A stretch of 64,000 bases of DNA from positions 6,203,501 through 6,267,500 of the forward strand of contig JAXDDX010000012.1 in assembly GCA_034670405.1 (NCBI GenBank), read 5' to 3'. The position numbers and the translations under genes were made by a program. Within the stretch, counting starts at the first letter, position 1. Each line of letters begins with the position of its first letter. The stretch comes from Hoplostethus atlanticus (taxonomy: Eukaryota; Chordata; Actinopteri; Trachichthyiformes; Trachichthyidae). Shown piece by piece: positions 6,853 through 52,488 of the stretch. A model generated the notes under the pieces. The model worked only from the letters and a program-made list of their open reading frames with translations. It was not told the DNA's origin and made no database searches.

Positions 6853-8071
6853 ATGAACTTCAGCAGGAACGTGGCCCGGCAGAACAGTTGTTACACGTAT
6901 GTGATAGACGAGGATCCACCCCTGACAAGCTGTAATGTATTTGAGGTGAGGTCAACGACGGTCTTCGGCAAACACTACAAACGATTTAGAATAAAAATAA
7001 AAATAAAAATAAAAATAAAAATAAAAATAATACATAAAAATGTGATAAAAATTAGGACACACATTCTAAAGAAAAATATGATGAACAACACAGAATAAAA
7101 AACATGGACACAATCAAAAACATTACATTATAATAGTATATAATATATAATAATATATAATATATAATAATATATAATTTCTATATAATAGAAACAAGAA
7201 CCAAGTCCAACAGTTGCCTTGTCTTTCCATCTCTTCAGATTATTATTACTATTATTTCTAAAATATGTCAAAAATGAGATTAGGTGGTTTTGGCGGTGCC
7301 ATGGTCTGTCAACTAACTATAAATATTTACAATATGAGGAGGTTTATGTAACCTCAATCCAAGCCCTGCTCAGCCTGACAGGAACACTGACTAGACGTCT
7401 ATATGAACCAGAGACCTGAGAACTCCAGTATTGTGTCGTTATGGTCCATGATATGCAATGTACAATAAAAATTACCATCATACAATCTGTGATGACATCA
7501 GGGACAGCCAAATGTAAAATATGTATAACATGAGCAGATAAAATCAGGGGAACAAAACTATGAAAAACAGTAGATGTTAAGAGTTGGTTCACTGGTGCTC
7601 CCACAACTGTGATTTGTGTTTGTGTTTGCGAATCTACAAGCATGTTTTTTCATATTTTAGTAGACTTAGCTCTGCTTCTCCGTGTGTATCTATTCTATTC
7701 TGCTCTTTAACCATCCCTACCTCTATCTAGTTGGCTTACGAGGGTGACCTGGCACTGCTGGAGAGCCTGGTGAGGAAGAGCCCAGAGGTCCTGAGTGAGA
7801 GCGATGAATCTGGAGCCAGTCCCCTTCATCACGCCTCAGCAGGGGGCCACGTCACCCTCATCCAATTCATCACCTCTGTCATCGACCCAGAGGGTGAGCA
7901 TGCCTCAGTCATCAATCATAAGATGCAGTCCAGCAAGTAAAAACGTGTATTGGAAATGTAACGTACTGTATGGAAGAGTATGTTTGATCTGTGTATGGTA
8001 AGGTATGGAGCGTTGCATCTGATGTTTATATGAGTCATGGGTGTATCTATGTGCGTCATTATGTACATGTT

Positions 8072-8103
<32 letters not shown>

Positions 8104-11100
8104 CATGCTCTTGTATGCCCTCCCTCCCAGAGGTGAACAGCTGTGATGAGCAGGGCAGTGTGCCCCTACACTGGGCGGTGGAGAGGAACCAGGCTGAGAG
8201 CTGCAGGGCCCTTCTGGACCTGGGGGCCGACCCCAACAGCCTCAACATGGCCCTCATGTCCCCTCTCCACCTGGCTATCAGCAATGGACACAACAACCTG
8301 GTGGAGGTGAGGAACTAGTATATCCATGAATCAACCATTGCATGAACAGTCCATTTTTTACTGAACCCTCTCCCATACACAGGAACACAGACAAATGGAA
8401 CATTTCAACCCAGTCCAGTCAACACAGTCCATTCAAACATGAACAATAAACAGGCTTCTGGAGCGTTTTGTTATTAGGGATGAACTCTGAAAGTGGCCTC
8501 TGTTTTCTCCGGGGCTTCTCCACCTCCTAAACAGGAAGGATCGATATAGGATAGCTAACAGGAATCATGTGCCACTTGTCTCATCAGGCCGTCTCTTGCC
8601 TCTCTCCCTTGTCTTGCTTGACCCGTACATACATTGATTTTTGGACTCCAAATGCTTTAATGAGTTATTTATTGCAGTGATATGTCCTGTAAACTATATT
8701 GGAGCAGCTGAGGTAGTTATCCTTAGTTGTACCTCCTGCACCACTCTGAGCTCAGTCCAGGGTTTTGATATACTTAGTTAGCCAAAAAATACAACTTGGT
8801 GGTGGAAAGGTGTCATGGCCCTTACCCACCCCAGAACACCTGCAAGGTAAGATGTCCTTTGCTTCCCTGCTTGTCTGGTTAGGGCGCAGGGTCAGCTAGG
8901 TTGCAGTGCCCCTGGAACAGGTATTGGCTTACTTAAGGATATTTTGACAGTTATGGCCACAATGGGGAGGATAGACATTTATGTTATCATGTCAGGACCA
9001 GCATCTTGTCACCTGGAGCAGCCGCTTCTGGAGCGTTACTCCCTCGTCACCTGACTGAGTTGTTTACGTTGACAAAAACCTGACTCAACATTTTACTTGG
9101 AAAGACCTTGGCCAGTAGTCCCCGATGCACTTGGCTGTTGGCCACTATCTCACACAGCTCCAGTCTGGTGCAGGACACAGGCTGCAGATATGAAGGAGAC
9201 ATAAGGACAGTAAGGACTGGATGATGCTCACTGTAAAGTATTTATCACCTTTCCCCTACAGCTGCTGCTGTCCTACAGTAGTACAGACAGCAACCTGCAG
9301 GGAGACCTTGGGAACACTCCTGTGATGCTGGCCTGCTCCATCAATAACTATGAGGCTCTCAGCATATTGGTATGTATTATAGCGTTCACACACAGATGCA
9401 TTCAATTTCACTGTCCATCTGTACCAGTCTATATAGGCTGTGTAGCTACATAAAGCAAGAGACAATTCGGTTTTTATTTTCGATTAATGGTCTGCCATTA
9501 CTACATTACATCACTATTCTGCTTCATACTGACTGCCAACCCACTGCAGCTTAACACCGGTCTTTTCTCTCTCTCCATCCATCCCTCTATCTGTCCTAAG
9601 CTGAAGCATGGAGCACGGCTCTGCCAACAGAACAAGCTGGGCCATTTTGCCATCCATGCAGCTGCCTTTGCAGGTGCAAAGAAATCCATGGAAGTGATCC
9701 TCAAGGCCGGTATGACACACACAATGATCTATCAGAAAAAATTGAAAGCGCTGACTATAATGAAAAAGGTTCCACAAGGCCAAAAAGCACATTACACTGA
9801 TGGGAGAATAGAGAGTTCACTTCACTCTTGCAAACTGCATTTGTAGCTTCCAGCAGCGACATTTTGCAGGAAAATGTTCATGCTAGTTTGTACACAAACC
9901 AGACACCACCGTCTGACACCATGTTTACCCGTAGTGGGAGGTCTGCTGGTTGAATCAAATGTTGTTGTAGAAATGTTTAGTCCAAGTACAAAATATTTGT
10001 GATATTTCTGTTATAGCTCAGCAATGGAATTAATGGGTATTCACATTCTTCAGCTATTTGAGGATCTACACTGATAGCCCACCATAACTAGACATGATGA
10101 CACTTTACTCGTTACCTTCTTCCAGTAAAAACAAGCTCAATAAACAATAAAGTCAAGTGAAGGAAAGCATCTAATGGAGTGTCTTGAAATTCCCTCTGAT
10201 CCCTAAAAAGTCAGCAATCAAAATAAAGGAGCTTGCTTACACCAACACACATTTACTAAAGCTCTTAAGCTCTCATGTCGTCATGTGAAATAAAAGTTAT
10301 TCACATTAAAGAAACAATTTATTATATTGTCCGTGGGCAGGGGAGGAGAACGGCCACACAGTTGAAGGCCACATCAACTATCTAGACAAGTCCAAGAGCA
10401 GCCCCCTCCATCTGGCTGTACGGGGTGGGAACATCGAGACCATCCGCCTCTGCATCGCTACTGGCGCCAAAATTGACCAGCAACAGGTATCAGCTTCACA
10501 GAACAAGAAAATGTAACATGAAATATCGATGTCGGTGTTATACATGCACGATATCTCACTTTTAAAAGTTTAAAAGTGGCCATAAAAGGCGTAAATGTAT
10601 TTGGCTGGCGACAGGCTACTCTTTCACCGCCGCTGCTTTACATTCAGTCCAACACACCTGGGAGCTTCCCATTACAACCGCTGTCTTCTACTGTTGGCCA
10701 CGGAGCAGCCTCAGTGGAGTAATTGGTGGGTTAAGTGCCTTACTCGAGGTCATTTTGACAGTAGTTGTTGAGGGAAGGAAAAGCTTTAGTCAGATTTTTC
10801 TAGCTGGTAACCCTCTTGTCACGAGCCCACTTCAACCTTCAGTCTACCGCTGCATTCAAAGGACGGCAATTATTACCCGTCTCTCCTGCTCTTCCACTCC
10901 CATTCATCCATCGAGTGCTTTGTCAGATTTCCATTGTTTCTCGATCTAGACGCATTGGACTGCACCTGTAAAGCATTGGACAAAGGATCAGACTCTTTGT
11001 GGTGTTGGAGCACGTCCGTCTTATCACGCCCATCTGGGAGCGATCCCTGCGTCTAGCCCTGGGCTAGTGGCCAGAGCTACAGCAGGAGTAGTGAGTCCAG

Positions 11101-13670
11101 TAATAGCTTCAGATGGCTAAATTGATACAAATTACCTCCACTTACATTGTGGAGCTGAGTGGAGCAATCGCTGGCCCACTCCTGCCAGTCCTGGTTATCT
11201 CATTAAAGGCTCACGTTACAGTTCTGCCCCCCCCACCCCCCCCCCCCCCCACCCTCCGTTCAGCCAGCAGGTCTGGAAGATAGTTTGCTAATGTTACACT
11301 AGGGAAGCGTACACTATACACTTGTGTGTGTACTGTGTCTGTCTAACGCTCTGTGTCACAATGTGTGTGTATGGAAGCAGGTACACTGATGTTTGTAGTA
11401 TTTGTGGCTTTTCACGACTACATCCGTGTATTTGTTGTTATTGCTGCCCAGGTTGACAAGTCCACAGCGCTCCATTTCGCCTGCACCCAGGGCGCCATTG
11501 AGGCAGTCAAACTGATGCTGTCCTCCTATGGCCGAGTGGAAGACATCATCAACCTACCTGATGGGGCGCGTCAGACCCCTCTACACAGGTGGGCCCCCTG
11601 TATCCCTCTATCCTGCTGCTGTACTTCATCCATTTATCCATTCATGCTTTCATTTATTTACTTTACTTACTTCTTTTATTTAAGTGCAACAAATATCGCT
11701 ACTTGAAATGTGTGTAATTGTTGCAAATGGTTGGAAAAGCTTTGTATGTTTACAGTCACACGGTTTTAATTGACAGCGCCAATTCATTGATAGTGTCTCA
11801 CTGTAATGATTTGGGTTATTATGGTATCTATGGTTACTGTGTCCACTGTGGCTCATGCTGTGCAAAGATGGAAATCAATCCACCCGCACAATATCAACAT
11901 CGTAACCCTGTGATAAAAAGGAATGACATGGATATAAAACCCGAGGGCACGGCTACTAGATGGCTGAGTTTTAATTTGAAACAATAATAAAGATATGCTC
12001 ACCATGTTAACTGATGTCTAATTAAAATAGCACACATTATTGTTGACTGTACCCTTCCTCATCAGAGAAACACTAAAAAGGAAACACATATAAATCATTA
12101 TCAGCAGTCATAAGGCTTTTTGGCACCAAGTCAACCAGCCAGTGACAAGCGGCTGGCATAGCTAGTGTAACCTATGACCTTTGATATACAAAAGCCATGT
12201 TCCCTCCTGTCTTGAGACATAAGGCCGTCTGTGGTTAGGAGATCTCTGGATTATCAACTGTGGAAATTGTCCCTTTCCACCTCTTAAGTCTCTCTTCTCA
12301 ATGCAAAATGTCACTGGAGTACTAAGAATTGGTTGTTAAAGTGCGTCATGAAAGTGAGTCATTGTAGTGATAAATGTAACCGAGGAGAAAAATCGGTTTG
12401 TTATATCATCTCTCATGACAGAATCATCCTAATGCTCTTGTGTCACAGGTGCTGCGTTGCTGTTGTAGGCTACATATGGACTAGCTTACAACAAATGTGT
12501 GTTTACTTTTCCAGGGCCATTGTATTTGACCACACAGAGCTGGCAGAGTACCTAATTTCTTTGGTAAATAAGGCACATACACAACACACACATACGCACA
12601 CACACACACACACACACTACACAGCTGTTATTAAGCAAAATGGGATGAGGTTCGTTCCATCCAAACTCTTTCGCCGATACTGTCACACTCTGTCTGCTGC
12701 TTATTGTAACTGTGTTAAAACTTCGATGCTCCAGGTAAGACCTCTTGAGATGAGGTGTTTACATCATTTTCTGTCCTGTACTGCGCAAGTTCAGTTTGGT
12801 GTTTGGCATGATAGTAATTGTGGATGTGCTGTGTGTGTCCTGCTATAATCGGTGTTTTGCTACTGTCTTGCCACACTCTTGCTACTCTCCTGCTGGCATG
12901 TCATTGGAGATTCTGTCCCTTCAGGAAAGTCCTGTCCTAAATTTAGCGTGTCTAGTTTATTTAGTGGTATCGGAGAAAGGAAAACAGCATTTTTCAGCAG
13001 CAACTACTGCAACATAAAAAATACAAGCCTGTCAGTGTAATAAAATCTCATGTAATAAACGATGGTGTTCCAGGTGAGACTCAACTTAACAACCTCGGTA
13101 TTGCTCTGCAGAGGACTGTCTTACAAATCACACACGCTGGCCAGCTACACCGCTACAAGCATGTGTAAAAAATGATCTCCACTACTCATTAGTTTCTCAA
13201 GCTTGGATTTCACATAGTGATTGGTGCTGTTATGCCACTTAGCTGGGCATGGTTTCACTAGAGAACTGTAGCAATTCAATAGGAACTCTTAGCTCAGTAA
13301 GTGTTGAAGCTGCTACATGAAGCATGAAATGTGTTTGGGATTTATATTAAAATGCTACGCAGCACATTTAAGTGTGATATCTTGTATTTTACTGAGGACA
13401 TTTTGAGTTGTTTGTGTTTGCACCTGGTCTATACCGTGCCTCTGTGATTGGAAAGGCTGAAAGGTCAGTTTAACAAGACTAAGGTTTGAGGGCGTTCTTT
13501 CCTCAGGGTGCAGACATTAACAGCATAGATTGTAAAGGAAACTCTGCCTTGCTGCTGGCTACGAGCTGTGGAGCATGGAGAACTGTGGCCCTGCTACTCT
13601 CTAAAGGTAAGCTGCTGCACTTCACCATCAGCAATGCTCCAATAATCTGCAAGGTGCCTGATAACTCTGG

Positions 13671-13726
<56 letters not shown>

Positions 13727-16700
13727 ACACGCGTGTATGCTTTCATGTCTTTATATCTTTTAGGGGCTAATGTGAATGTGAAAGACAGATGTGGTTGTAA
13801 CTTCATCCACCTCGCCATCCTCCAGCCCAAGGGTCTGAAGAATCTCACAGATGATGTACTGCAGGTACAGAGTCCATGTCGCCTAATTGAAGGATGTCAT
13901 TTAAAGATATTGAATCTGCTTATTACCCTCCTTGAACAATTTCCCTTGAGTCTAGCTGCATGCGTTCAAGGCCAGATAATAAAATCCATTACTCACTAAC
14001 TGAGTAAAATGATAGTTCTTTAAAACATTAAAATGATGGTGAAGCTTCCAGTATGAGCCAGGAGAAGGGTGATGAATTTACTGTTGACACTCTGTGAAAG
14101 GAATCTCTGTGCATCTGGGTGTGCAGATATTATTACATGATTACTTCTGTGTGTGTGTGTGTGTGTGTGTGTACAAATGTAGCCATTGTAGAAGCTGCAC
14201 AATTTACTCCACAATTTGCTGCATTATTTCTGCAGTGGTGCTCCATGACTGAGAGGAGTTGCTTGGAAAATTCAAGTTTTGTTCCAGTTTCAGTCATCAA
14301 AAGATGCAAATAAATAAATAGTTTTAAAGATTAGAGTTTGTGTTGCAATATGGCTATTCAGCTCTACCCACAACATTTGAGGATATTAGGCTACCATGGC
14401 TGTTGCAGATGATGGCTACCCCTGTATGCCCACTATGCATGTGTGCAGTATACAGTACCGTAAATGATTCTGTTTACATACATGAACATGTTTATATTGC
14501 GTCTTACTTCAGAATAACAACGTGAAGGCGTTGCTGAGCAGCGAGGATAATGAGGGCTGCACCCCCCTCCACTACGCGTGCAGACTGGGTATCCATGACT
14601 CAGTAAAGAACATGCTGGGTCTCTCAGGGCAGGTCTGCATCGCACGCAAGTCCAAAGACAAGAAGTCCGCCCTGCATTTTGCTGCCCAGTGAGTTGAATT
14701 GGTCCCTCTGTGCATGACTTTTCCATTACGTTACAACAAACCGTACTGATTTGGCGTTGCTTTCACTCACTGTAATTGCTTACACTTTGTTTCACACACT
14801 AATTGTGACCAGTTTCTGTTCCTTTCATATACTGTCTATTATATAGGCTGCATTCAAAATGCACATAATTAAAATGAACAACCTCAGCAATAATTTCATG
14901 GCTAATATCAAACCATGTACACCACTGGATTACTGTTATACCCCTGGAGCCTTCACCCCCCACCCTTCAGCTCTACCAGTGGACAACTGTTTCAGCATTT
15001 AGTAATTGGTAGTGGGGGAAAAAATGAATAAACAGAATTATTATGGGACAGAATAATGTCACATAATTTTGCTTAATCAGAGTTTGTTTTCAGTTTTCAA
15101 TAATAATGCAATTAAAGCAATGGCTGAGCTGCTTAGATTTTACACGTGGTAGATGTACTTTACTTCTCAAATAACTGCTCTCAAGGAGAAGTTGCTATAC
15201 ACTGTGTATTGATCGATTACACCAGCATACAACATTAATCAGAAATTGTTTTCCAAAAGCCTTTGAGTTACTATTTTGCTATAGCCAAGGATTTTATTTC
15301 TGTGATTAAAAGACAGGTCAGATGAAAAACAGATATATAACCGAATTCAAAAATCTCTTCTTACCATTCAGGTATTTCAATTCAGAAAGCAATTTCTGTA
15401 CTCAAAAGCTTTATGATGAATTGCTCATACTCTGACCAGTATCTCATCAATTAACTAGCATAGTGGACTTGTCACAAGAATAGAAAGCAATTAGCAAGGC
15501 ACACCTGAAGGAATGTTACAGATGGTGTGAAATGCGTGGACATCAAATGCTGTGATATCACTTCTTTCACCAATGTCGTTCCCTTTCCCCATCTCTCCTA
15601 TAAGGCACGCTGACAAGAATTGCCGCTGGGCCTCTCACAAAGCTTGGAGACAAAGAAAAATCATAAGGCCATAAGGCCAATAAGTCATTTCAGTTTTTTC
15701 CTCTTCCCTGCTTGGGGCCCCATGAGTCATTAACTCCCCAACATGTTCTACCTTTAGGCAGCAGGGTGGCATAGTGAGTAGGGAGACCATCCTTCTACCA
15801 GAAGGCCCAGATTCAAGCCTTGTGTCAGCAGACATCCAGGTTGCTGAAGTGTCCTTAAGCAAGACACTGAATCCAAACTTCAGGAGCTGACCGTGCGCTC
15901 TGACCTCCATGTAGAGTGGGGCAAGCAAAAAGAGAATTTCCCTTTCAGAGATCACAAGACAAACAAAAACTTCCACCAAATTGCACCACTACTTCTCTCC
16001 TTGTGCCTTGAAGCACTTTACCCTTGTTTCTTTTCAGGTATGGGCGCATCAATACCTGTCACAGATTATTGGAGACCATGAAAGACTCTCGTCTACTAAA
16101 CGAAGGGGATGAGCGGGGCCTGACACCACTCCATCTGGCCTCGGGAGGAGGGCACACCAAGGTGGTGGAGCTGCTGCTGCGCAAAGGGGCTCTCTTTCAC
16201 AGGTAAAAGATGTACAAACACACACATACACACACTCTTTTTGGTATGCTTACAGTACTGTAATGCTCGGCTGCCTTTCATCAACATGATCCTCATACCA
16301 CCTGTGACATAATCTTGGATGTTCATCTCTTGTCCACAGTGATTACAAGGGCTGGACTTGTCTGCACCATGCTGCGTCTGAGGGATACACACAGACTATG
16401 AACATTCTCCTGTCATCCAGTGTCACGTTACTGGATAAAATAGATGAGGATGGGGTGTGGCAATTACTTTTCTAATTTACACTCGTCAAGCCCATTATTA
16501 GTTGATGCACTTACCTGTACTGATATATTTGAGACCAGGCTTTGAAGTTCATTAGTAAACCTGAGATTGACGTGTTGTTTCCCATGCAACAGTAAGCTAA
16601 GTCAGTACCGGCTACTGTTCTCTAATGAAAGCATACAGTCCCATATTGTGTATTGTCATACCAGAACACAGCGCTCCACGTCGCAGCGAGAGAGGGACAT

Positions 16701-19700
16701 GTGGCCGCGGTCAGGCTCATGATGACTAGGGGGGCGGAGTTCCTCCTGAACAAGAACGACACATCTTTCTTCAACGAAGCACTGCAAAACGGGAGGAAGG
16801 ATGTGGTCAATGCTGTAGTTGACAGTGACAGGTATGTTGGTAATGGCAATGTGTCCAGAGAGCAATGTTTAAAGATAAATTCCTTAGAGTAAAAAATGTC
16901 ACTGGTGCAGGTGTTTTTTTAAGTGTAAACCATGGACTCAGTTCTGCCAATCATATAATGGACTCAACACAGTGACTGTCTCTAGGCTAAGTAATTGTTC
17001 AAGCAATAGATCGATTCAGGTCATGTCTATGCATTCGATCAGGTACACAGCTACACATTTGTGTTTCGTTTTTTTCCAGATGTGATGAGGCTTTGAGACT
17101 GTTCAAGCGCGGCACTGGCCACCGATCTCCGATAATAGACATGATTGAGGTTCTTCCTGAGTCCTACAAGGTTCGCCCCTAACAAAGACAAGAAGACTAA
17201 TGATTCATCTGCGTGCATAGTTAGCATTATAACTCATCTTTCCCAAAGCACAGAAATGGTATCCAACACCACATTCAATACTTAAGCATTGCTTGTTCAG
17301 GGGATATCAACAGAGAAACAAGCCCTTAGGCCCATAGTGTTGTTTTTCTCCTTTTCTTAATAGCACCTATTGGACCTCTGTGTGAGGGAGTCAGATGACG
17401 ATCCCAACAGTCCTGAGTACAATGTATTTAATCTTTGCACAATCAAAACAACCCACCGATAACTTTCCATATCAGATTTAATTCATATCAATTCTATACT
17501 GCATGAAGCATCCGCAAGGTAAAAGAAAAATGTATTTCTATGTGTGGTGTAGATCGAATACAATTTCATATGGCTCCAGGCTCCCATTGTCACAAAGAAG
17601 TATTCGGAAACTGACAAGACCCTGAGGGTTCAGCCACTAGCAGCACTGAATGTAAGCATCTTTTCTACTCAAACCTAATTTTGCTGCAGCAGAATGTACA
17701 AGAAGCTGCTGTCCCTGTGGTTGATAAGTAGTCATCCGCCGAGCAAACCCTCTTCTTTTATTACCCAGTGACATCGTATTGTTCAACATAATAGACACAA
17801 GCAATCTCATCTTCCACCAAATGTTTACATGCAAACAGTTCCCTATGCCATGTTGCTGAATGCCTGCCTCTGCCTGCTTGTGCTGCCACATTATTCCCTC
17901 TGGAGATCAATAAGATACACACAGAGTATTCAATCTTTAAGGCTTTTTGTTGACTTAGTGTCCTTTCCTGCATGTAGAAAATGTACCATTAAGTAATAGG
18001 CTATTTTTCTATTACTCTTTCCGCAGGCGATGGTGCAATACAACCGCATCGAGCTCCTCTCCCATCCTGTCTGCAAGAAGTACCTGGAAATGAAGTGGTT
18101 TGTATTCAATGCGATTTAACCCCTGAGAGCGGTATTTCTCATCCTGGCATGTTGTGACTACAGATCAGGGTGGGAGAAGGGCGATGTAATCTACTGCACA
18201 CAGGATGCCGATTCACTGCTATTTACTGACTCTGAATGCCATTCTCCTGACTGTATGTGTCTCCTCCACTCGTTTAACCCACAGGGTAGCGTATGGGAGC
18301 GGGGCTCATCTGCTCAACATGTTTGTGTACCTGTTAGGGCTGCTTCCCCTAACTCACCTCATAGTGAATCTGAAGCCGACCATGAGCACCACCGACCAGG
18401 GCAACCACAATGTCACCATGGTGCCCATATCTTTCACAGAGGTGCGAGTGACGCTGGTGCTAATGTGGAATGAAATGTCAGCAAAGAGTGATTTTTCTTT
18501 GTGTAAAATCAAAATGGTTTAATCGCGTGTATAACAGCTTCGATGACTGAATAGAAACAATTCTGAATGTATCCTTAGATGTAAGAATACAGAGAGGTAA
18601 AGTGTTGTAAAAGACACATAAGCGAAAACCTTTCAACCAGGTGGTTCAGATACAAACCAGAAGTTAATGGCGACATAGAATAGTACGCAATGTCACTCTG
18701 TCTCCATGTAGGGGAAGTAGCCTGTAAATCATGTAGTTGCTATTGACAAGATTATTTTCTATCCTATAACTTTTAATGACTTCCATCATCATCATATCTT
18801 CATTTCCCGGGTAATAAACCTTGTCCTTGTCCCATTACTTAATTTACTCACTTTCGTCATGAACCGTGAATTATATGTCACATTCACTGGCAACAGGGTT
18901 ACAGTGCCTATCACCTTGTTGAGTCGTCACGTTATTTGTCTCTTAGAGAAGGAAAAAACTGCCATGCTTACATGTTACATCACACAAAATCTGAACATTG
19001 TTCTTCATCCCACAGCAAAATCTCTTCTTGTCCTTCTGTATGGTGATGGTGTTGGTCATGAACATCTGCGCCATAGGGAAGGAGCTGGTGCAGATATTAC
19101 AACAGGTATGTTATGCAAGCGTCATCATTTCACATTAAATAGGTACCCATAAATTTGCTCTCAGCCTTCAGCACCAAGCGGGAGGACATACTGGCCGTCA
19201 GGCGTGATGCAGGAGTCCTGGCATTGAACGTCACCTCCAGACAGGAACTTTCCCTTGGTCCTTTTTAGTGTAGCTATAAGAACAGACGCTACACACTGCT
19301 ACACCAAACCAAAACAAGCCAACTCAACGCAACCCAAACCAAACCAACCCAACCCAACCCAACCCAACCAAACCGTGATGAAACACACTGTGATGACGAC
19401 TTTTCAGGGTCTGAGTACAACAGGAAGCGATCAGCCCTGCTGCATGAAAGTAGCCTTAGTAGGTGGTGTCAAATAGCTGTGCAGTTGTTCGTGTGACTAA
19501 TTGTTTTATATTTTACTTTGTCACTTGAAAGCGCTGGGATTACTTCAGGGATATTTCCAACCAGTGTGACTGGGCCGCAGCCATCTTCTCTCTTTGGTTC
19601 GTCATTCCACTCTTCTTCAATGCAGAGGGTTCTTTACATTGGCAAGCAGGGGCAATGGCAGTTTTCAGTTCCTGGGTTGGCTTTCTCTTTTATCTCCAGA

Positions 19701-22369
19701 GGTAAATGCTAAAATGTTTAAATGCTCAAGTGAACAAATCAGCACTTCATCTCATCATGCCTTTGTCAGGATTGATTGTCTGCTAATTGGAAATATCTCC
19801 CATTTCCCCAGGTTTGAGCACTTTGGTATCTACGTTGTGATGTTTGGGGAGATCATGAGGACGTTGGTCCGTATTGTAGTGCTGTTCCTGTTCCTGATGT
19901 TAGCTTTCGGTTTGGCTTTTTATGCACTGATGCTCAATCAGGTAGGAGAAGAACCAGAAACATTATTGAAACCAAGAAACATTTATTGAAAATCTGTTTG
20001 TCCTTATTACAAGCGAGCCCAAAATGAGAAACCAGTTTGCCCTGTACTGTATGAGTCATGTATTGTATGCATGCTATGTAGTGCACTGTATACAATACAC
20101 TGAGCACAACATAAATCTAAGCCTGCTCTTCTGAAGAAATAGACTGACCAGGTGGATCCTAAACTATGATCACTTATTGATTCCACCTTGATCCACTTAA
20201 ATCTTTGCGATTGAGAAATGTAGCCGAAGGGGAGGAGACATGGAAAAGAAGGATTTATAAGCTTTGAGACAAGTGGATTTTGCTAAAGGGTTGCAACTCA
20301 ATATTAGGCAAGGGTACTCAATGCATGTCACATATAAAGACATTGTTTCATGCTTTTATTTTGATAAGCTGCACAATTTAACAATAATAGATACAATTGC
20401 ATTGTCATGCAGTGCTCTTGTTTTTTCCTCACAGAAAGAGTTTGACACTGTGACACTCTCAGTGGTGCAGACTTTTGTGATGATGGTCGGGGAACTGAAC
20501 TACCAAAACAACTTCCTGGAGGTTTATCTGAACGATGAGCTTCCCTTTACGTTCCTGACATACGTACTTTTTTTAAACTTTGTTCTGTTCATGCCAATTC
20601 TGCTGGTGAACTTAATGGTAAGCATGTCACCCTATAAATCCTGTCACTCCTTATTCATACATCTTAGTCCATGTGACATTTGTTTTTGTTTCATTTTCAT
20701 GAGGTATTAGAATGTATTTCAGGGCTTTGCTTCCTTAGCTATTGACTCCTTAACCTCCATTTTTCACAGAAGCAGAAGGTCAATGCAACTAGTTGATGTT
20801 AATTACTGAACATAGTGAACATAGATGGGTCTTGTTTGTTTCACTTTGGCTGTGTTGTAGATTGGTTTAGCGGTCGGAGACATTGCTGAGGTACAGAGAA
20901 ATGCTGCCCTGAAGAGAATAGCCATGCAGGTCTGTATGAAACCAGCTACCGGACAGGGAGGGACTAATGATATAATCTATAACTCTGATTGGAAAAGAAC
21001 AGCGACTAGACAGTGTATGATGCATTCATGATGATATCACAGCTCCTTACCTGACCTGTCTGCCTGACCACCCACAAACGGCAAACAAACAAACAATCAA
21101 AGTATGAAGAATCATAGAGATGTGCAGTAGATGACCAACTGATGTTTTGGTCTGTAGGCCTTCTTCCCCGAGCACCCAGTTCTGACTGAAAATCTGACTT
21201 GTTGACCTCAGATTGACCTCCACACTGCTCTGGAAGATAAGTTGCCTTATTGGTTCATGAAACGAGTGGACAAACCCTTTCTCACCATCCACCCCAACCG
21301 CAAATGCTCCAAGGTATGCCCTATGCTTGCAACTGGAAACAGTGGTGATGAAAAATGACATATTGCTGCGTCTTTGTATCCTATTTCAGTTCAGCATTTC
21401 TCTTTTAACAGTCATCTATTCTATGTCATTTCATTTCAAATCTTTTGACAACAGACCTATATAAAGATGTTAATGTTCTGGCATGATGAGCCAACAAATG
21501 AAGTTCGGACTCGTGTGCAGACCAATTCATACAACTGCACTCCAATACAGAATGAGCTCCAAAAGCAGAAGTACAGGTAAAGCAAGAGTACAAAAAATAC
21601 TCACACTGGGCCCCTTCAAATCTGTCATTTTCCCGCTGTGTATTTTTTTATGTTTCTCTTAATTAATGATGGGAGACTATTATGCCAAATAAGCTAATGC
21701 TTTAATGTTTGCAACAAGCTAAACTGTTCTATCATCTCACAGAAAGTGTACACTAACAGCTACAGAGAGACAAAGTGGGGAAGAAAGAAACAACAGCTAT
21801 TTAATTGTGTTTTTTGATGCGTGAGCAGCCTCTAGTGGATTCAAACTCACAAGGGCCTGCATTTTGACCAGGGTCCCAGAAAACAGCTACCTTTTCTTAG
21901 GCTAGTGGGCACAACCAGAATGTGTTCCTGTCTTTCAAATGGCAAGAATTAAAGTCAGTAAAGACTCTTTACCCATTTTTTTTTCAACTGCACTACTAGT
22001 TTCATGAGTTATGTTAGCCACTATATTCCATTACTCAATGAGCACGTGGCACCTCAGAGCAGCATCAAACTCATAAAAACTATTTAAAAATCTAGTCAAG
22101 ATGTGAAGAAGTCAATATCTGATACATAATCTAAACCTCATGTTCTCTACTGCAGAATGAAGGAGATGTCGAGCATGCTGGAGAAGCAGCACAACCTCCT
22201 GAAGCTCATCATCCAGAAGATGGAGATCAGCTCAGAAGCTGATGAGACTGACGGCCCTGTGAACGTCAAAGGGGACATGTGGTCAATGTTGAGTCGAAGT
22301 AAATCCAGATGTCACCGTGAGTCTAAATGGGTCCCACTGATGAAGGCCATCGAAGCCAAGAGAAAGTGA
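6853..22369 (+). CDS. trpa1: TRPA1 ankyrin-repeat cation channel, complete, 27 coding exons
   Basis: TRPA1 is a tetrameric, calcium-permeable plasma-membrane channel of sensory neurons, opened by irritants and, depending on species, by temperature. Coding exons: 6853-6945, 7731-7893, 8131-8306, 9262-9369, 9601-9709, 10341-10486, 11452-11588, 12515-12563, 13507-13606, 13764-13864, 14513-14688, 16038-16202, 16340-16454, 16665-16831, 17080-17170, 17364-17423, 17553-17651, 18027-18097, 18285-18441, 19016-19105, 19532-19701, 19812-19941, 20435-20617, 20861-20929, 21212-21313, 21455-21576, 22156-22369 (TGA stop). Every junction is GT-AG and in phase. The sum is 3363 nt, or 1120 aa, against 1119 aa in human. 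The start is the first ATG after the exon 2 acceptor (6805), with an in-frame TGA at 6823. The weakest link is the first coding exon: its 31 residues only loosely resemble human TRPA1. Whether this is the trpa1a or trpa1b type was not decided. Confidence 0.95.
6991..7030. repeat. (AAAAAT)n simple repeat
   Basis: Six to seven tandem copies of a poly-A-rich hexamer in the intron after the first trpa1 coding exon. It could be the tail of an old retroposon, but no body was recognised upstream. Confidence 0.9.
7131..7189. repeat. AT-rich (TAATATA)n repeat
   Basis: Interrupted tandem copies of a TAATATA-type unit made only of A and T until its end. It is self-complementary and could form cruciforms. 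It lies in trpa1 intron 2. Confidence 0.85.
7731..16831 (+). CDS. trpa1: TRPA1 ankyrin-repeat domain (coding exons 2-14)
   Basis: These exons encode about residues 32-601, the long cytosolic ankyrin-repeat arm. Many repeats carry the TPLHxA-type core: SPLHHAS, VPLHWAV, SPLHLAI, SPLHLAV, TALHFAC, TPLHYAC, SALHFAA, TPLHLAS, CLHHAAS and TALHVAA. The segment KSKDKKS(A/P)LHFAA followed by YGRINTC matches human TRPA1 almost word for word, as does SRLLNEGD against TRLLNEGD. The repeats stabilise the tetramer and connect to the linker that senses ligands. Coding exon 8 is only 49 nt (12515-12563). The domain is unbroken and similar in length to the human one. Confidence 0.93.
8071..8103. repeat. (GT)n microsatellite beside exon acceptor
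   Basis: A GT tract with a short CG interruption that ends about 27 bases before the acceptor of the trpa1 exon at 8131. Confidence 0.92.
10729..10766 (+). repeat. Remnant of a dispersed fish repeat
   Basis: The stretch resembles a recurrent fish repeat segment with the pattern GTTAAGTGCCTTRCTCRAGG followed by ATTTTGACAG. A more eroded similar segment occurs near 8930-8960. I recognise it only from general familiarity, so a repeat library is needed to name the family. Confidence 0.35.
11227..11255. repeat. Poly-C tract in trpa1 intron
   Basis: Runs of 8 and 16 cytosines are separated by single A residues. The minus strand could form a G-quadruplex. The tract lies about 200 bases upstream of the exon at 11452. 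Confidence 0.9.
12584..12618. repeat. (CA)n microsatellite
   Basis: An interrupted CA tract just after the donor of the 49-nt trpa1 exon (12515-12563). Confidence 0.9.
13674..13723. repeat. (GT)n microsatellite inside a 157-bp intron
   Basis: A pure GT tract of about 50 bases that makes up about a third of the trpa1 intron 13607-13763 and ends about 40 bases before its acceptor. Confidence 0.95.
14148..14172. repeat. (GT)n microsatellite
   Basis: A short GT tract in the trpa1 intron between the exons ending at 13864 and starting at 14513. Confidence 0.9.
15757..15955 (+). mobile_element. tRNA-derived SINE copy
   Basis: The left part looks like a tRNA promoter: an A-box-like TGGCATAGTGAGTA at 15767-15780 and a B-box-like GATTCAAGCC at 15810-15819. 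The body carries GCTGAAGTGTCCTTAAGCAA and ends with GAATTTCCCTTTCAGAGATC. A second copy at about 49993-50191 shares the boxes, the body (GCTGAAGTGTC, AGCAAG) and the tail. It lies in the trpa1 intron upstream of the exon at 16038, in the sense orientation. It is a retroposed element, not a functional tRNA gene. Confidence 0.75.
17080..18097 (+). CDS. trpa1: TRPA1 pre-S1 linker (electrophile-sensing region)
   Basis: Coding exons 15-18 encode about residues 602-709 and align without gaps to human TRPA1 from the C621 region to beyond C665. In mammals this linker holds the reactive nucleophiles C621, C641, C665 and K710. Here the equivalents are Ser618 (C621), Ser630 (C633), Cys638 (C641), Ser648 (C651), Ala662 (C665) and Lys708 (K710). 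The block IEYNF and the block AMVQ-NRIELL-HPVCK-YL-MKW are strongly conserved, so the alignment is secure. Three introns here start with less usual donors (GTTCGC, GTATTT, GTTTGT). Confidence 0.92.
17890..17918 (+). repeat. Possible SINE/LINE 3-prime tail fragment
   Basis: The segment TTCCCTCTGGAGATCAATAA closely resembles the tail of the SINE copy at about 49993-50191. The SINE body is not visible upstream, so only the tail or a LINE end may be present. It lies in a trpa1 intron. Confidence 0.35.
18285..20929 (+). CDS. trpa1: TRPA1 transmembrane domain S1-S6, pore and TRP helix
   Basis: Coding exons 19-24 encode about residues 709-975. S1 follows WVAYGSGAHLLN. An NVT glycosylation sequon (N751) lies in the S1-S2 loop. 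S2 (LFLSFCMVMVLVMNICAIG) leads to KELVQ, and S3 follows DISN. E784, Q787, N801 and D804 correspond to the human calcium-site residues E788, Q791, N805 and E808. S4-S5 runs through FLFYLQRFEHFGI. The pore helix and filter read QTFVMMVGELNY, where human has GDINY. S6 ends in VNLMIGLAVGDIAEVQ, followed by the TRP-like helix LKRIAMQ. All membrane segments are intact, so the channel is expected to fold and conduct. Confidence 0.94.
19320..19373. repeat. AACCC/AACCA pentamer repeat
   Basis: Tandem AACCC units with variants in the trpa1 intron after the exon encoding S2. The unit is five bases and differs from the vertebrate telomere hexamer. Confidence 0.85.
21212..22369 (+). CDS. trpa1: TRPA1 C-terminal domain with coiled coil
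   Basis: The last three exons encode about residues 976-1120. IDLHTALEDKLPYWFMKRVD matches the human post-TRP helix. EKQHNLLKLIIQKMEISSE matches the conserved tetrameric coiled coil that holds the four subunits together and binds polyphosphates in TRPA1. The stop is TGA at 22367-22369. The tail after the coiled coil is diverged and lysine/arginine-rich but keeps the W-P-L-KAIEAK pattern seen as W-x-V-L-R-A-V-K-A-K in human. Confidence 0.92.
21825..21838 (-). promoter_or_regulatory. CTCF-like motif in trpa1 last intron
   Basis: GCAGCCTCTAGTGG matches the reverse complement of the CTCF consensus at about 12 of 14 positions. It is only a motif match. Confidence 0.2.
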
Positions 22370-26439: not shown

Positions 26440-27335
26440 ATGTCCACTGGCTCAGTAGCAAGCGATGCTGAGGACTTGGAGACATGCCACAGGCGGACTG
26501 CAGCCCCTTTGGAAAGGAGCAGGCGGAGAATTGCCTGCTATAATCCCAGCCGGTATTCTGACGAGGAGTTGGACGACGACGGTGTCGACGGGAAGACCAA
26601 GCAGGAGCGCAAACTCTCCAAAGCGCACCAGAAGGATGGGCGGCAGTCGCAGAGAAACGCGGCCAATGCCAGGGAGAGGGCGCGGATGAGAGTGCTGAGC
26701 AAAGCCGTTCTCCAGACTCAAAACCAGCCTGCCCTGGGTACCAGCGGACACCAAACTGTCGAAACTGGACACGCTCCGACTCGCCTCTAGCTACATCTCT
26801 CATCTTAGACAGCTTCTGCAGGATGACCGATTCGAGAACAGCTTTGCTCACCCGGTTAATCTGGTATGAACCTCCAAAAGTTGTTTGCCATGTTCCTCTA
26901 CTTTCCCCTACCGGAGAACAGCATGCTCTGGATGAGGAGAGAAGATGTTAAAGAAACGTTACATATCCTTTAAAATCACTTAAATGACATGAGCAATCAA
27001 AACCCAAACGACAAATCACTATAATATTCCTTAAAATATCTATAAGGTGTGAGTTTATGCTACATTATGTAATCTTATATAGGATCACTATAATATTACT
27101 AGTACAAAATTGTTTTGCTGTGGTATTTGCACTGTATAGTTAAATGTATTTTAGGATTACCTTCCTTTTCCTGAGGGAATCTGTTCATTAGGACTAATTA
27201 ATAGCTGTGGTGCTTCTTTAGTGACCAACCTGTTGCCCTCTCCCTTTACAGACTTGGCCATTTGTGATGACAGGGCGATCAGAGGACAACCAAGACATCT
27301 CTTCAACTGCCAGACTTTGTGGAGCAACAGCATAG
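26440..27335 (+). pseudogene. msc: msc (musculin/MyoR) bHLH repressor, two exons, frame broken by one extra base
   Basis: Musculin is a nuclear class II bHLH factor that dimerises with E proteins and represses E-box genes. It acts in branchial-arch muscle and lymphoid cells. Exon 1 (26440-26863) opens with MSTGSVASD, close to human MSTGSVSD, and contains the basic region [19 protein letters not shown]. At 26703-26707 one extra base shifts the frame, and the shifted frame stops at 26788-26790. Without it, exon 1 is 141 codons and continues through intact helix 1, loop and helix 2 ([14 protein letters not shown]) to HPVNL. Exon 2 (27252-27335) begins TWPFVMTGRSED and ends LCGATA then TAG, as in the Msc/Tcf21 family. 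The expected length is 168 aa, against 206 in human. Apart from this one base it looks functional, so a recent mutation or an assembly error are both possible. Confidence 0.9.
26703..26707 (+). other. msc: Single-base frameshift inside the msc bHLH domain
   Basis: Family members read Lys-Ala-Phe-Ser-Arg-Leu here. The window reads AAAGCCGTTCTCCAGACTC, one base too many (an extra C or G between the Ala and Phe codons). Everything before and after is in frame with the family. The early stop (26788-26790) is 73 nt upstream of the exon junction at 26863, far enough to be expected to trigger nonsense-mediated decay. Confidence 0.9.
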
Positions 27336-38002: not shown

Positions 38003-38320
38003 TATCATATTGTATTGTATTGTATTGTATTTTATCGTATTGTATCATATTGTATTGTATCGTATTGTATTGTATTGTATTTTATCGTATTGTATCATAT
38101 TGTATTGTATCAAATTGTATTGTATTGTATTATATTGTATTATATTGTATTGTAATGTATTGTATTGTATTGCATCGTATTGTATTGTATTGTATCATAT
38201 TGTATCGTATTGTATTGTATCGTATTGTATTGTATTGTATTGTATTGTATTGTATCGTATCGTATTGTATTGTATTGTATTGTATTGTATTGTATTGTAT
38301 TATATTGTATTATTGTATTG
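38003..38320. repeat. Long (TATTG)n pentanucleotide array
   Basis: About 320 bases of tandem TATTG units with variants TATCG, TATCA, TATTA and TATTT. The open frames crossing it (Ile-Val-Leu-Tyr-Cys repeats) are artefacts of the pentamer. Confidence 0.95.

Positions 38321-52371: not shown

Positions 52372-52488
<117 letters not shown>

Follow-up and report, generated by a model that had tools for sequence, protein, structure and literature searches.

A TRPA1 gene in a Hoplostethus atlanticus assembly with serine and alanine at the sites of human C621 and C665

The trpa1 locus

The window, the whole 64,000-nucleotide stretch of DNA that was analyzed, covers positions 6203501-6267500 of contig C12 in a 632.8-Mb assembly of 1161 contigs. 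It encodes a trpa1 gene, with an msc-like gene as its downstream syntenic neighbour (Table 1). Upstream of trpa1 lies a copy of kcnb2, whose first exon is some 21 kb from the gene. The gene names kcnb2 and msc are in part assumed. The genes of the assembly are those of a teleost.

Table 1. Features of the window, in window coordinates, with the residues read at sites equivalent to human TRPA1 positions
Feature	Coordinates	Strand	Content	Basis
trpa1 (TRPA1b by synteny)	6853..22369	+	27 coding exons, 1108 aa	exon cores and splice sites
Exon 11	14513..14688	+	Cys410 and Cys417 kept (human C414, C421)	
Exon 15, start of pre-S1 linker	17080..17170	+	Arg617, Ser618 (C621 equivalent), Ser630 (C633 equivalent)	
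Ser618 (human C621 equivalent)	17126..17128	+	TCT	codon read
Ser630 (human C633 equivalent)	17162-17164	+	TCC	codon read
Exon 16	17364..17423	+	Cys638 kept (C641 equivalent); Ser648 (C651 equivalent)	
Cys638 (human C641 equivalent)	17379-17381	+	TGT	codon read
Ser648 (human C651 equivalent)	17409-17411	+	AGT	codon read
Exon 17	17553..17651	+	Ala662 (C665 equivalent)	
Ala662 (human C665 equivalent)	17580..17582	+	GCT	codon read
Exon 18	18027..18097	+	Cys701 (C703 equivalent) and Lys708 (K710 equivalent) kept	
Cys701 (human C703 equivalent)	18072-18074	+	TGC	codon read
Lys708 (human K710 equivalent)	18093-18095	+	AAG	codon read
msc-like bHLH gene	26497..26866	+	downstream syntenic neighbour	Pfam HLH on second piece
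TATTG five-base unit	38008-38320		63 copies, 83% matches	
GA dinucleotide run	52376-52486		55.5 copies	

The trpa1 reading frame is unbroken across the pore and on to the C terminus. With no internal stop in the 27 exons, the first-pass annotation was right to call the gene otherwise intact. All 26 donor sites are GT and, as first placed, 25 of the 26 acceptors are AG. Exon 26 was shifted by eye by 3 bases to AG/CCA, which gives it an AG acceptor and the protein a length of 1108 aa, the start of this exon being uncertain. Searched against human TRPA1 chains in the PDB, the protein matches with E=0 across residues 32-1107 (numbering of a 1109-residue version), and the alignment as shown ends short of the C terminus. 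Identity with human TRPA1 is 51.2% (496 of 969 aligned residues). Pfam finds Ank_2 in seven stretches and Ion_trans at 762-966, which gives the protein the TRPA1 layout, an extended ankyrin array at the N terminus followed by an ion-transport domain. By sequence, then, the window gene is an intact TRPA1-type cation channel. His851 of the protein corresponds to human N855, a residue that the available text of PMC5118716 ties to inhibition by HC-030031 and gives as Arg in zebrafish. With His at this position, HC-030031 may not block the window TRPA1.

The msc-like gene takes two reading frames, which join near 26700 within the helix-loop-helix region. This one-base break may come from an indel in the assembly or be a genuine mutation. 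Two simple repeats, of TATTG and of GA, lie further along the window. Elsewhere in the assembly, a cluster of alpha- and beta-globin-like exons is found at about 2.30-2.35 Mb of contig C78. The best PDB haemoglobin match of one alpha-globin exon is 6hit, presumably Atlantic cod haemoglobin, with many positions differing. A parvalbumin in the assembly has 1pal as its best match, all four matches to MHC class II beta domains were above the cut-off, and a search for the UDG family gave no match. The MHC class II domains led to the rejection of a cod-like source, which dinucleotide repeats had suggested, as gadiforms are not known to have MHC II.

Copy number and TRPA1b identity

The first-pass annotation had proposed a check for a second trpa1 that keeps the cysteines, and none was found in the 632.8-Mb assembly or at the TRPA1a site. 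In the whole-assembly searches, which score the best candidates only and cover an assembly that may be incomplete, a 464-aa query gave 14 matches, 12 of them at the trpa1 locus and two of them weak matches elsewhere (E 2.88 and 5.68). With a pore query, three matches were obtained and each lay at the trpa1 locus. The 701-base stretch from 17000 to 17700 of the window occurs once in the assembly. Among bacterial/archaeal and viral contigs, a search for TRPA1 relatives returned eight and two pattern matches, respectively, with none confirmed.

According to the available text of PMC8857925, TRPA1a sits between kcnb2 and hsp40 and was lost around the Neoteleostei. The assembly has four Kv2 loci. 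Two of them, the kcnb2 copy upstream of trpa1 and another on contig C320, are 92.9% identical over 296 aa. On C320 the first exon of kcnb2 is at about 52.6 kb and a DnaJ/HSP40 gene is at about 22.1-28.8 kb (Pfam DnaJ E=1.6e-16 on a 38-aa piece). A search of the whole stretch between them (~28.8-52.6 kb) turned up no TRPA1 match with an E of 10 or less, and across C320:1-120000 the best TRPA1 match (E=6.4) was near its start. The DnaJ motif HPDK or HPDR was absent from the window and from 20 kb on each side of it. With DnaJ and kcnb2 on C320 in the order given in that part of PMC8857925 and no TRPA1 between them, the TRPA1a site is there, and it is empty. This empty hsp40-kcnb2 site supports the loss of TRPA1a. 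Since the TRPA1a site is empty and trpa1 lies elsewhere, the window gene can most likely be identified as the TRPA1b ohnolog of teleosts, and it is the only TRPA1 found in the assembly. As a kcnb2 copy lies next to each of the two sites, it is hsp40 on which the assignment to TRPA1b depends.

Residues at the electrophile-reactive sites

Between C621 and C665 of human TRPA1, the alignment of the pre-S1 linker is free of gaps. This alignment and the codons in Table 1 reproduced the residue calls and numbering of the first-pass annotation (Ser618, Ser630, Cys638, Ser648, Ala662 and Lys708). The mammalian-type reactive C621 with K620 nearby is absent, the fish having Ser618 and Arg617, and the mammalian-type second site, C665, is also absent, the fish having Ala662. 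The pair C641 and K710 is present as Cys638 and Lys708. These two had been named as the sole survivors; both are indeed kept, but so are the equivalents of C703, C414 and C421. Whether most reactive cysteines are gone, as had also been stated, depends on the list: only one of the set C621, C641 and C665 is kept in the fish, whereas C414 and C421, which we take to be mouse C415 and C422, are both kept. Over the compared range (residues 38-1010), 9 of 25 human cysteines are kept. Residues of the JT010 pocket are changed as well, with Trp for Y662, Thr for F669, Val for Y680 and Ala for T684. No convincing alternative exon carrying the cysteines was found in 16600-18300, where the best match beyond the known exons had an E of 0.057 and a stop.

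To judge which cysteines count as lost, the fish linker was set beside the TRPA1 PDB chain 7ykr, presumably from Drosophila. 7ykr has Cys at the equivalents of 621, 641 and 665 and Lys at that of 710. As all four are shared with human TRPA1, they look old. On this alignment the fish TRPA1 has lost two cysteines from the old set of three, at the equivalents of C621 and C665. 7ykr has no Cys at the 633 and 651 equivalents, and C633 and C651 were rejected as losses after this comparison. Of the four losses first listed, those at C621 and C665 therefore stand, while the ancestry of C633 and C651 is unsupported by 7ykr; half of the list may be cysteines gained elsewhere. Human TRPA1 and 7ykr are identical at 40 linker columns. 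The fish keeps 34 of these; the C621 and C665 sites are among the six that differ. Cysteine loss among those columns has a hypergeometric P of 0.054, a value that is suggestive only as the test was chosen after seeing the data.

By one published account, part of the cysteine change is ordinary for fishes. In the available text of PMC8857925, the one source on fish TRPA1 cysteines that the literature search yielded and one that does not name the residues, two of three AITC cysteines are retained by notothenioids as by other teleosts, so that teleosts already lack one of them; for notothenioid TRPA1b the same text counts 5 of 10 redox cysteines as kept, a state like that of other teleosts. It is possible, and we put it forward tentatively, that all of the change is ordinary teleost variation, with Ser and Ala common to many TRPA1b channels that respond normally through C641, K710 and other cysteines. 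The lack of support from 7ykr for an ancestral C633 and C651 would fit this, as would the zebrafish channels: excerpts report strong AITC currents (PMC5605526) and calcium responses to AITC (PMC12633415) for zebrafish Trpa1b, and stimulation of both TRPA1a and TRPA1b by cinnamaldehyde with differing sensitivity (PMC5118716). The AITC sensitivity of TRPA1 is called conserved across the vertebrates tested in the part of PMC12446388 available. If the cysteines of zebrafish Trpa1b match those of the window TRPA1, sensitivity need not be reduced. However, the window TRPA1 keeps one of the three cysteines as opposed to the two reported in that text of PMC8857925, and 7ykr keeps all three. At least one loss thus seems lineage-specific, provided that the same three are meant.

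Relaxed constraint, under which a channel losing function would shed its cysteines first, is improbable. That just 9 of the 25 compared human cysteines are kept is in its favour, but the 27 exons are intact with canonical splice sites, 34 of the 40 columns shared by human TRPA1 and 7ykr are kept, and the human match spans 32-1107. Less probable still is that the TCT codon reflects a rare allele or an error in sequencing. There is a single assembly with a single copy of the stretch, and the one-base frame break in the msc-like neighbour makes base errors possible; yet the trpa1 reading frame is clean, Ala662 must be wrong too, at two base changes from a Cys codon, and the errors of a long-read assembly, if this is one, would mostly be indels, as is usual for such assemblies. 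Error at both the TCT and GCT codons is unlikely.

Predicted electrophile range and comparison with other channels

TRPA1 serves as the principal receptor for irritants, and it is debated whether its responses to electrophiles and to temperature are separable. Human mutants suggest what substitutions at these sites may do. In the available text of PMC5684862, C621S abolishes the response to 9,10-phenanthrenequinone (9,10-PQ) and keeps that to 30 uM AITC, and C414S, a change at a site that the fish keeps as Cys, is insensitive to both; in calcium-sensitised C621S/C665S cells, 9,10-PQ currents were small in five of seven cells and large in the other two. Excerpts of PMC9695908 report that C621S loses the response to 10 nM JT010 and keeps that to 100 uM AITC, and name Y662, F669, Y680 and T684 as important for JT010. 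Isothiocyanates, the first-pass example of irritants to which this channel would be less sensitive, were accordingly a poor choice, since human C621S still answers AITC in these parts of both papers. AITC may nonetheless be hit harder than we propose, as C621A alone lowered responses to the electrophiles tested, including AITC, in the Ca-45 uptake assay described in the available text of PMC10282659. There, C621A/C641A/C665A retained a minimal AITC effect, tied by the authors to K710, and carvacrol still worked on this channel.

Carried over to the fish, the behaviour of the human mutants suggests a channel that should work with a narrowed, right-shifted electrophile range. Our preferred reading, to which we give a probability of roughly 55%, is that this sole TRPA1b, with an eroded pre-S1 pocket, would be a working thermo- and chemosensor whose electrophile range is narrowed. 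The pocket would be eroded by the changes of C621 to Ser, K620 to Arg and C665 to Ala together with those at Y662, F669, Y680 and T684. Small electrophiles such as AITC would still open the channel, though less potently, by way of Cys638 and Lys708, and the ankyrin cysteines may perhaps contribute to this opening. Agonists that depend on C621 (9,10-PQ, JT010 and similar) would be expected to fail; the two of seven C621S/C665S cells with large 9,10-PQ currents appear to count against the proposed loss for 9,10-PQ. Temperature and oxidant responses could then carry more of the physiological role, as in Antarctic-fish TRPA1b, which is temperature-activated and has its threshold lowered by oxidation in the available text of PMC10581778; by this likeness a thermal or redox role of the window TRPA1 is plausible. 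The cysteine loss probably narrows the irritant response and does not abolish it. The earlier interpretation of a functional channel with reduced or altered irritant sensitivity is supported in part. The intact channel and the lost C621 and C665 equivalents stand, and a second TRPA1 with the cysteines was looked for without success; the points on C633, C651 and isothiocyanates do not hold as first put.

A stronger version, which we consider doubtful, is that a sole TRPA1 without C621 and C665 has given up fast C621-type irritant sensing and kept temperature and oxidant gating. If true, the chemical and thermal functions of TRPA1 would be naturally separated in a vertebrate. Cysteine state alone is no predictor of sensitivity, as mosquito and drosophilid TRPA1s differ in chemical sensitivity despite conserved cysteines (excerpts of PMC6934445 and PMC12132172).

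The TRPA1 family is known already, as is natural substitution of a key cysteine, in the highveld mole-rat (cited in the available part of PMC12132172). That a vertebrate's only TRPA1 has lost both C621 and C665 may be new; no description of this was found in the literature searched, mostly without subscription papers. In an animal that has no other TRPA1 in reserve, a natural channel without the C621 and C665 sites would put the two-site activation model to the test outside mammals and reveal what C641 and K710 are capable of by themselves. The finding is also relevant to nociception assays in fish where AITC or other electrophiles are taken to act through the mammalian sites.

Among known channels, human TRPA1 and its C621S construct share with the fish protein the ankyrin, pre-S1 and Ion_trans layout and 51.2% identity over 969 aa. 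Of three human PDB chains compared, the best-scoring, 6pqq, has Ser at 621, and we take it to be the published C621S construct; 6wj5 and 9m8n have Cys there. Unlike that construct, the fish also has Ala at C665, Arg at K620 and an altered JT010 pocket. The chain 7ykr has the C641 and K710 equivalents in common with the fish but keeps those of C621 and C665, both absent from the fish. In highveld mole-rat TRPA1, as cited in the available part of PMC12132172, a key electrophile cysteine is likewise naturally substituted and chemical sensitivity is reduced, although this is a mammal. Like the TRPA1b of zebrafish and notothenioids, the window gene lies apart from the hsp40-kcnb2 site, which is empty as in derived teleosts in the accessible text of PMC8857925. 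From notothenioids and other teleosts it is set apart by description, with one of the three AITC cysteines kept as opposed to the two reported in that text.
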